NCBI GenBank assembly: GCA_028817875.1
Contig: JAPPOO010000081.1
Location: 2,341 to 53,003 of the forward strand
Source of the DNA: Alphaproteobacteria bacterium
GTDB taxonomy: Bacteria > Pseudomonadota > Alphaproteobacteria > UBA2136 > JAPPOO01
Direction of reading: 5' to 3'
DNA length: 50,663 bases
A model generated the notes under the pieces. That model saw only the letters and a list, made by a program, of their open reading frames with translations, was not told where the DNA came from and ran no database searches. The first letter of the stretch is position 1. Each line of letters starts with the position of its first letter. Below are positions 22,667 through 25,722 of this stretch, in pieces. The position numbers were made by a program, and so were the translations under genes.

Positions 22667-24997
22667 CTATGATGAAGCAGGGTCTTTTGTTTTAAATTCA
22701 CTGACCATCCCCATAATACCTTGCCCCATATCACTTAGATTTCCAGAAGCATTTGTAATATCTCCCGCGTGGGATTTACTAGCCTCCGCAACTTTAGAGA
22801 ATTCATCCATGTTTTTGTTTACTTTATCGCTCATCTCTTGGGTGATACTTCCTTGCTCTTGCACAGCCGCAGAAATAGAAGATATCGCATCATTCAAATT
22901 ATCAATTGTCTGGCTAATATCAGCTGTTCTCGATGTAACATCATTCGCATTAGCGTTAAGTCCTGCCAGCTTTTCAACAATTTCATTAGCAGCTTCTTCT
23001 GTTTGAGCCGCTAGCTTTTTCACTTCATCGGCCACAACAGAAAATCCACGCCCTGCATCACCGGCACGGGCAGCTTCTATACTAGCGTTCAAAGCCAAAA
23101 GGTTTGTTTGTTGAGAGATATTCATAATCAACTTCAAAATATCTTCAATATGCCCTGTGGTTTGGTTCAGCGTTTCAATAGCTGTTGAAGCCTGTTGTGC
23201 CATCACCTTACCTTCAGCAGACATATCCGATGCTTGTACTGTGTTTTGTGCAATATCATTCACGGAAACACTAATTTCTTCAATCGCGCGCGCAACCATC
23301 CGCATATTCCGGTTAATATTTTCGCTTTCGTCTGTCATAGCGGTCATGCTTTCTTTAGCTTCCGTTAGCACTTCGCTATACTCTTCCTCAACCATACGGC
23401 TTGCATTTTGATTAAGCTTATCTGCAATATTAGATAAATGCTCAGAGGAGTACGTTAAATTTCCTGCATTTGATTTTAGGTCACATACAAAACTTTCAAT
23501 TCTGCCAATAAACGTATTGAACAAAATGGCAACTTCAGCCGACTCATCACCCGTCTTTTCATCTAATCTCAAACGTAAATCACCATCACCTAGCACAATA
23601 TTTTCCAAGTGCTTTTGCAATAACCCTGTACCAATTGTTGTGCCGTGCTCAGCAACATTTAGCCCCTCTTCTTCCTCAGCTCTTTCTACCCGCACACCAA
23701 GCGTCATATCCAGAAGCTTAAACATAACAAATGCCACACTAAACGCCCAAATAAAGCCCATAGCAACACCTTGAGACTGTACAAAAATTTGCTCCATTCG
23801 GCTTCCCACAGCCAAGCTTTCAGCAGGCATCCAAAACGCGAGGGCGATTGTCCCCCAAGCACCGCAAAAACCATGGACAGGCACAGCCCCTATGGCATCA
23901 TCCCATTTCAAAACTTTATCCATAAACATATGGGTATAAACCACAACAAAACCACTTGTGATACCAACAGCGATGCTACCGCCTGTCGTTAGTACATCAC
24001 ACCCTGCAGTAATACCGACTAAACCACCCAGCACGCCATTAATACTTCTATCGGGTCGGAATAAACCATCATGCAGCCGCCCTAGTATCATAGAAACCAA
24101 CCCACCAAAACATGCCGCTAACATTGTATTGGAAATAATGTGTGCAAACCCAGAATCCCCTACTGTTGTTGAGCCACCATTAAAGCCAATCCAACCAATC
24201 CAGAGCAAGATAGCTCCAAATGTAGCCAGCACGTAACTGTGACCAACAATTTCGTTAGAACTTCCATCTTCATTATATTTACCAACCCGAGCACCGACAA
24301 CAATAACACCTGCCAGAGCAATCCATCCACCAACAGAGTGAACAACAGTGGAGCCTGCAAAATCTATAAATCCAGCATCTGCCAACCATGCGGGGTTATC
24401 ACCATTTAATAGGTTCCCCCACGCCCAATGGCCAAAAATTGGGTACACAAAAGACGCTAAACAAAATGCTGCAATAAGGTAAGAGTGGAATTTCATCCGC
24501 TCTGCTACGGCACCAGATAAAATAGTCGCCGCTGTTCCACAAAAGACTAATTGGAAAATAAAGAAGGTATAATGCCAGTCTTCCGGTGTATTCCATAACC
24601 AGAGAGAGCTACTCCAACCAAACCACCCTTGAGAATCTCCAAACATAAGGTTAAAGCCAACAAAGTAAAACATCACCCCTGCGATGATGAAATCCGCAAT
24701 ATTCTTTTGAGCAACGTTGATACTGTTTTTGGACCTGACCATCCCTGCTTCTAGTAACAAAAAACCGCCCTGCATAAGGAAAACTAAAGCAGCGGCAATC
24801 ATCGTCCACATGTGGTTTAAGCTATCTTGCTGCTTGGCAACGGCTGCTGCCACAGCTTGCTCAACAAAAGCTGCATCTACCGCAGCATAAGCTTGTGAAA
24901 AGAGGAATACTGAGGCTAGTACAAGAATATAACGTCGCATTGATCTGGAACTTTTTTTGTTTTTTTCGGCTTTATTGGACGAAAAATTTGCCTTCAT
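22667..24997 (-). CDS. ammonium transporter-chemoreceptor fusion (Amt-HAMP-MCP)
   Basis: This is a 776-residue protein. Residues about 20-39 form a signal-like segment. Residues 60-435 are a complete Amt/Rh domain: conserved Asp212 and His220 (DFAGSTVVH) and a second pore histidine His375 ([11 protein letters not shown]) match the aspartate and twin histidines of AmtB. Residues about 460-510 look like a HAMP linker (GDGDLRLRL, then FNTFIGRI). Residues 560-770 are a methyl-accepting signalling domain with the conserved hairpin tip [18 protein letters not shown] infer an ammonium-sensing receptor feeding the chemotaxis kinase, possibly still conducting. No NWETF-type tail is present. The first ATG lacks a strong Shine-Dalgarno; ATG at residue 20 is an alternative. 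Confidence 0.93.
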
Positions 24998-25068
24998 GTC
25001 AACCCATCACTGCGGGTTGCTCAGAACTTTGTATGATATTTTTACAATAACTGGAATGGAGAGAACCA

Positions 25069-25296
25069 ATGCCTAGAAAAAAGAAACCTCCTAAACAGAG
25101 GAATGCTATGGCTAATGCCTTAAACAACAAGATCTTTCAACCCAAAACTATAGGAGATAAACGCCCTCATAAAAATGCCAAAACACTTCGCAAAAAGAAG
25201 CTCACCTGGAAAACAACCGATGAGCTTCTTTTTTATTCGTTTAGTGACTTTCATCTACAAAAAACCAACCTTCTTCACTGTCGGAAGATATCCTAA
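25069..25296 (+). CDS. arfA: candidate alternative ribosome-rescue factor A with terminator inside the ORF
   Basis: This is a 75-codon ORF with a strong GGAGAG site 4 bases before the ATG. The first 50 residues are very basic. The stretch RNAMANALNNKIFQ, followed by basic residues, matches the ArfA core pattern (NAI-x3-L-x4-(L/I)F-(R/Q)) of the gammaproteobacterial rescue factor. Decisively, a 13-bp hairpin with a U-tract (25192-25233) lies inside the reading frame, about 20 codons before the stop. E. coli arfA has the same arrangement: the mRNA ends without a stop codon, tmRNA tags and destroys the product, and ArfA accumulates only when tmRNA fails. The active product would end near residue 55. 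The family assignment is by eye from a short motif. Confidence 0.62.
   Translation: MPRKKKPPKQRNAMANALNNKIFQPKTIGDKRPHKNAKTLRKKKLTWKTTDELLFYSFSDFHLQKTNLLHCRKIS
25192..25233. terminator. terminator hairpin inside arfA, also serving the opposing gene
   Basis: AAAAAGAAGCTCA (25192-25204) pairs perfectly with TGAGCTTCTTTTT (25221-25233) around a 16-base loop, followed by TATTCG. On the plus strand it would end transcription within the arfA ORF. On the minus strand it follows the stop of the 122-residue gene by 7 bases and is followed by U-rich sequence. Confidence 0.85.
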
Positions 25297-25609
25297 TCCA
25301 GCGAATTTTATCGCCTTCTTTTCTGCCTGGCGTGTTTTTCTCTCGCAGAATATTCCGCAAATACTCAACTAGTGAGAAACTGTCCAAAATTTTCTCTGTT
25401 CTAGCTATTCCGTTTACAAGAAGCGTACTTGTATTTACAGCACCATGTTCAATGGTAAGCATTTGAGAAAAAATCCTTGTCCTCTCTCCATTACATTCCC
25501 TATAGAACATAACAAAAACTTCATCAGCTCCAGAAAAAGCTTTTCCCCCCATCTCAGAAAAATTCGTGTAATCACTATTATCAATAATTTCTGTCATACT
25601 AAGAATCAT
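25241..25609 (-). CDS. hypothetical protein
   Basis: This is a 122-residue soluble protein from ATG 25609 (MILSMTEI), which has GAAAGG about 9 bases upstream; the frame stays open to 25675 but with poorer start context. It has no signal peptide or membrane segment. It contains acidic and aromatic patches such as EVFVMFYREC and a C-terminal RWIRISSDSEEGWFFVDE. I recognise no family. It converges on arfA: its stop lies inside the 3' part of the arfA ORF, beyond the shared terminator. Confidence 0.65.
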   Translation of the reverse strand: MILSMTEIIDNSDYTNFSEMGGKAFSGADEVFVMFYRECNGERTRIFSQMLTIEHGAVNTSTLLVNGIARTEKILDSFSLVEYLRNILREKNTPGRKEGDKIRWIRISSDSEEGWFFVDESH

Positions 25610-25722
25610 TTTAATTGACCTTTCGCAATTCCATAAAACGGACATAAAGATAAACTGCTTATACAGCACTTCCAAAACGTATACTTTGATAACGTGAAGG
25701 ACGTCAACAAACTAGTAAAAAG

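Follow-up and report, generated by a model that had tools for sequence, protein, structure and literature searches.

A divergent ArfA-like gene in an alphaproteobacterial genome

The window, that is, the whole 50,663-nt stretch of DNA that was analysed, contains a 75-codon open reading frame (ORF) that, judging by its sequence, very probably encodes a relative of ArfA, the backup factor that frees stuck ribosomes. We put the probability that this ORF is a divergent alphaproteobacterial ArfA, translated from a nonstop mRNA and kept down by trans-translation, at about 0.83. The alphaproteobacterial placement of the DNA follows the original prediction and the kind of genomes and tmRNA retrieved for its class. 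Because a transcription stop signal lies inside its own frame, the factor should accumulate only when tmRNA fails. The features of the locus are as follows.

25058-25063, forward strand: Shine-Dalgarno-like GGAGAG, 5 nt upstream of the ATG, from the sequence
25069-25296, forward strand: ArfA-like ORF of 75 codons with an ATG start, from sequence and profile searches
25099-25140, forward strand: codons 11-24, RNAMANALNNKIFQ, counterpart of the N14 to R26 segment of E. coli ArfA, from a gapless alignment
25141-25200, forward strand: codons 25-44, basic tail PKTIGDKRPHKNAKTLRKKK at the position of the ArfA KGKGS tail, motif absent
25192-25238, forward strand: in-frame intrinsic terminator, with arms at 25192-25204 and 25221-25233 and a U-tract to about 25238
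25239-25296, forward strand: portion of the ORF 3' of the terminator, expected from its position to be untranslated in most transcripts
25241-25675, reverse strand: convergent ORF of 144 aa with no family match, sharing 56 nt at its 3' end with the ArfA-like ORF

The translation of the ORF, MPRKKKPPKQRNAMANALNNKIFQPKTIGDKRPHKNAKTLRKKKLTWKTTDELLFYSFSDFHLQKTNLLHCRKIS (75 aa), is basic, with a net charge of +14 over residues 1-55; the original prediction of a basic ORF of this length behind a Shine-Dalgarno site was confirmed. The same prediction described an N-A-(I/M)-x3-L-x4-(L/I)F-(R/Q) core. The N-A-M, L and I-F-Q elements are indeed present, as N12-A13-M14...L18...I22-F23-Q24, and align without gaps with N14-R26 of E. 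coli ArfA, but the spacing before (L/I)F is x3 and not x4. F23 of the ORF is the match to F25 of E. coli ArfA, a residue that contacts RF2 (PMC8012679, PMC6299226).

The window represents a chromosomal housekeeping contig, carrying sucA, sucB, lpd, rpoD, dnaG, mutL and ispH, of a 1.58-Mb draft genome that is 95.9% complete, and its G+C content is similar to that of the contigs carrying tmRNA, RF1 and RF2. Divergent from the ArfA-like ORF, 22667-24997 on the reverse strand encodes a fusion of an ammonium transporter (Amt) with a methyl-accepting chemotaxis signalling domain. The divergent intergenic region contains an inverted repeat (CAACCC-N8-GGGTTG, 25000-25019) immediately upstream of the amt start codon, possibly a regulator element or a 5'-UTR element.

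An intrinsic terminator within the reading frame

A perfect 13-bp hairpin with a U-tract about 20 codons before the stop had been predicted, and this description proved accurate. The 5' arm AAAAAGAAGCTCA and the 3' arm TGAGCTTCTTTTT form 13 of 13 pairs around a 16-nt loop, and TATT comes next; the last base of the stem falls within codon 55 of 75, and the stop codon lies 20 codons further. RNA folding gave z = -2.84, with 1 of 200 shuffles being equally stable. Under one scoring scheme the hairpin scored 15.4, while a score of at least 14 was reached by none of the 182 coding segments of equal length in the window and a score of at least 15 by 10 of 2,360 coding segments from other loci. A simple terminator scan, which allows loops of up to 8 nt, missed the hairpin for this reason.

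In-frame terminators recur among the homologs of this gene. A score of at least 14 was obtained in 10 of 30 homologs (G000, G051, G086, G128, G133, G139, G237, G242, G349 and G377) versus 16 of 2,360 ordinary coding segments (binomial P ~5e-15, with sequence relatedness ignored). G017 was recognised by eye as an eleventh homolog with such a terminator, its long loop causing the score to undercount it, and a strong hairpin in G369 was left out of the count for its poor U-tract. Among the at least 10 other alphaproteobacterial homologs with an in-frame terminator, one (G017) belongs to the same order as the host. The switch is not universal, because other homologs have a normal stop, among them those of G114 and G388, two single-contig genomes of 1.2 Mb. 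From the anatomy of the gene and the recurrence of the terminator, we infer that a nonstop switch operates here.

The convergent ORF stops 7 nt before the hairpin, which is flanked by A and T runs on either side, and the terminator may be common to both ORFs. This geometry could also arise by chance, if a short lysine-rich ORF simply ran into the bidirectional terminator of the convergent gene and resembled ArfA in composition. However, the good Shine-Dalgarno site of the ORF and the same combination of ORF and terminator in G017, within the same order, speak against such a coincidence.

Homology to ArfA through intermediate sequences

Direct family tests of the ORF were negative. The profile search proposed as a check of the original prediction went against it: PF03889 (ArfA) gave no match at E <= 10, either for the ORF protein or anywhere in the whole genome. 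In addition, no NCBIfam model and no PF23876 (DUF7230) match was found for the ORF protein. With the ORF as query, searches of PDB (phmmer) and of phages (tblastn) gave no useful match, a single-sequence search of 40 relatives returned the self-match plus noise, and no close relative was found among 85,000 genomes. The KGKGS motif of the mRNA-channel tail is absent from the ORF, which has KRPHKNAKTLRKKK in its place. Given these negative Pfam and KGKGS results, we file the ORF as an ArfA-like variant and not as a member of PF03889.

The link to ArfA was obtained through intermediates. First, 8 of the 385 genomes of the class have ArfA proteins that PF03889 scores above its cut-off. A seed profile of nine relatives obtained through PF03889 scored the ORF at 11.7 bits (P ~1e-5), the first rank among ~1,140 ORFs of the window, and 2 of 10,000 shuffles outscored it. 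A three-sequence alphaproteobacterial alignment used as a query against genome contigs matched two alphaproteobacterial MAGs and two pseudomonads. Two further alignments (A2 and A3) were too variable throughout for pattern scans. Second, an order-wide search with a profile that included the window ORF revealed a second ArfA-like ORF in G017, a genome of another family (MSKHKKKKKITHRDPIAKSLRSPHNAPQTVLAKKGKGRKNLPRTK..., E = 6.7e-6), which possesses a 12-bp in-frame terminator and shares its contig with rpsB; weak matches in other members of the order were judged to be noise. Third, a class-wide search with an improved alignment gave matches at E <= 0.01 in 35 of the 385 genomes, some of them doubtful. 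The family counted from these searches comprises 30 sequences, with candidates L132-L136 left out. In many of its alphaproteobacterial members, KK-xY-xRK replaces KKGKGSYxRK; the ORF keeps the KKxYxRK pattern only partly and has lost the conserved Tyr.

When a profile of 22 alphaproteobacterial homologs was built without the ORF, the ORF scored 31.6 bits, more than any of 20,000 shuffles matched in composition and more than any other of the ~1,140 window ORFs, a result that is strong and not fully independent, some profile members having been recruited with an alignment that contained the ORF. With G017 also omitted, the score was 30.3 bits, still above all 20,000 shuffles; leave-one-out scores ranged from 23 to 62 bits per family member. 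The library profile phrog_20887, which is independent of this analysis, matched residues 9-44 of the ORF (E = 0.0015, 19.4 bits, PHROGs having no curated cut-off). Against PDB, the whole alphaproteobacterial family, in a profile that includes the window ORF, matched E. coli ArfA chains at 6e-11 (about 1e-10), and the KKxY branch alone (12 sequences) did so at 4e-6. The proposed ArfA identity of the ORF is supported in this way, by a family that links it to E. coli ArfA and by the phrog_20887 match.

These scores also bear on the chance explanation. The lack of a direct family match and the 2 shuffles that beat the ORF on the seed profile speak for it, but no shuffle of 20,000 reached the score of the ORF on the larger profile and the phrog_20887 match is independent; we consider a purely compositional resemblance unlikely. 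The least probable of the alternatives is an independently arisen RF-dependent rescue factor, like ArfT or BrfA, that is merely ArfA-like. The identity of the ORF to E. coli ArfA is low, and BrfA, which is described as distinct from ArfA, shows that in-frame terminators can also evolve with other factors (PMC6881298). However, graded intermediates connect the ORF to ArfA, and ArfT has no hydrophobic residue at the F25 position (PMC6299226), where the ORF has F23.

The original prediction left a choice between a transfer and an unrecognised lineage. Of these, the unrecognised lineage fits better and a single transfer less well: occurrence in many families of the class would point to an old branch with subsequent losses sooner than to one recent transfer, the sequences being too short for a reliable tree.

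Ribosome rescue in the host and the proposed mechanism

The host possesses tmRNA (tag peptide AKKSGNVVAFPSRTAAPMAMAA) and encodes RF2 (L074, SPF motif) and RF1 (PAT). ArfB was not detected in the draft genome: RF1 and RF2 are its only proteins with the GGQ-bearing RF-1 domain (PF00472), and a third one was not found. Within the order, ArfB is present in 6 of 18 genomes. An anticorrelation of ArfA and ArfB in the order was considered and rejected: both genomes with an ArfA-like gene are without ArfB, but so are 12 of the 18, and G017 is 54% complete. No ArfB and no ArfA-like gene turned up in G002, G003, G004, G005, G007, G008, G009, G011, G014 and G016, some of which are 94-97% complete; a more divergent or different rescue factor may be present in these ten genomes.

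The loss of KGKGS and of the conserved Tyr, together with the lack of a detectable ArfA in most of the order, could indicate a formerly functional arfA that is now decaying and losing its channel-binding motif. We regard this as very unlikely, since the frame is open, the ribosome-binding site is good, the N...F core is intact and the stem is perfect, since no ArfB is left as a substitute, and since ArfA's channel residues are functionally redundant (PMC8012679).

If the ORF is a functional ArfA, a type of protein that is mostly unfolded when away from the ribosome, RNA polymerase would usually halt at the in-frame hairpin, giving an mRNA without a stop codon on which ribosomes would stall near codon 55. 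With tmRNA-SmpB working, the stalled peptide would be tagged and degraded; with trans-translation overloaded, an untagged peptide of ~55 residues (~1-55) would be released. The basic tail of this peptide would then enter the vacant mRNA channel, and RF2, recruited by its N-A-M...I-F-Q segment, would free the stalled ribosome. This mechanism was drawn by analogy with E. coli ArfA (PMC8012679) and B. subtilis BrfA (PMC6881298), from which we infer termination in vivo, tmRNA control, RF2 dependence and rescue activity of the ORF product.

Like E. coli ArfA (YhdL, PF03889), the ORF encodes a small basic protein with an N-A-x-x3-L-x3-(L/I)F core and has an in-frame hairpin ~20 codons before its stop; the E. 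coli product is without its last 17-18 residues (PMC8012679). Enterobacterial arfA likewise overlaps a convergent gene tail to tail, there mscL (PMC10070815). The ORF differs from ArfA in having no Pfam match, no KGKGS, an alphaproteobacterial host and a different convergent gene. Its stem is also shorter and its loop large, which would suit termination more than RNase III cleavage. BrfA (YqkK) of Bacillus subtilis, a factor that recruits RF2, resembles the ORF in its small size (71 codons) and in its in-frame intrinsic terminator, which gives a nonstop mRNA (PMC6881298), whereas its sequence and host phylum are other than those of the ORF and its discoverers call it distinct from ArfA (PMC6881298). 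ArfT and BrfA were compared with the ORF by their published features only.

A probable wider alphaproteobacterial branch and ArfA-like ORFs in phages

ArfA has been described only from a subset of beta- and gammaproteobacteria (PMC8874680), was found in 0 of 2,376 alphaproteobacterial genomes (PMC11633108) and has been stated not to be present in Alphaproteobacteria (PMC10070815). Our sequence comparisons make it likely that ArfA extends beyond beta- and gammaproteobacteria, with a diverse alphaproteobacterial branch, including DUF7230 and phrog_20887 and often without KGKGS, forming an unrecognised ribosome-rescue family in which many genes are expressed from nonstop mRNAs via in-frame terminators; the ORF would be among its most divergent members, in a genome without detectable ArfB. 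The system is of a known kind; its novelty seems to lie in the alphaproteobacterial lineage, the loss of the motif and the link to DUF7230, as far as the open-access literature shows. If this is true, published surveys overlooked a divergent ArfA branch because they were based on curated cut-offs or nucleotide profiles, and two families of unknown function (DUF7230 and phrog_20887) gain a testable role. It would also raise the questions of how a rescue factor that lacks KGKGS can recognise an empty mRNA channel and why the in-frame terminator turns up again in distant lineages.

Among 18 family members scanned, 9 matched Pfam DUF7230, 8 matched ArfA at E <= 1 and 17 matched phrog_20887. DUF7230 itself is very probably an ArfA relative, because the 12 KKxY sequences alone and the whole family match E. 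coli ArfA in PDB; considered together, DUF7230 and phrog_20887, the names under which several homologs go, are probably ArfA relatives. The DUF7230 (PF23876)/KKxY alphaproteobacterial branch shares the N...A..L....F core and the basic tail with the ORF, but the ORF has no PF23876 match and departs from KKxYxRK, and DUF7230 has no assigned function; no mention of DUF7230 was found in the open-access papers searched. The DUF7230 members of G237 and G133, bona fide ones with scores above or close to the cut-off of the family, each carry an in-frame terminator at codon 45. In L137-L142 (G310, G113, G088, G387, G237 and G133) and in alignment A7, DUF7230 is without the GKG of KKGKGSY.

The phrog_20887 profile was built from phage proteins, whereas the ORF lies in a chromosomal housekeeping contig. 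A pelagiphage ArfA has already been reported (PMC12753301). In addition, we observed KKxY-type ArfA-like ORFs in large phages, namely Ochrobactrum phage ORM_20 (L144), where it has no annotation and a convergent Rz-like spanin gene overlaps it, and Acinetobacter phage Acj61 (L145), where it is a 41-aa hypothetical adjoining rIIA and is common to ~31 Acinetobacter phages.
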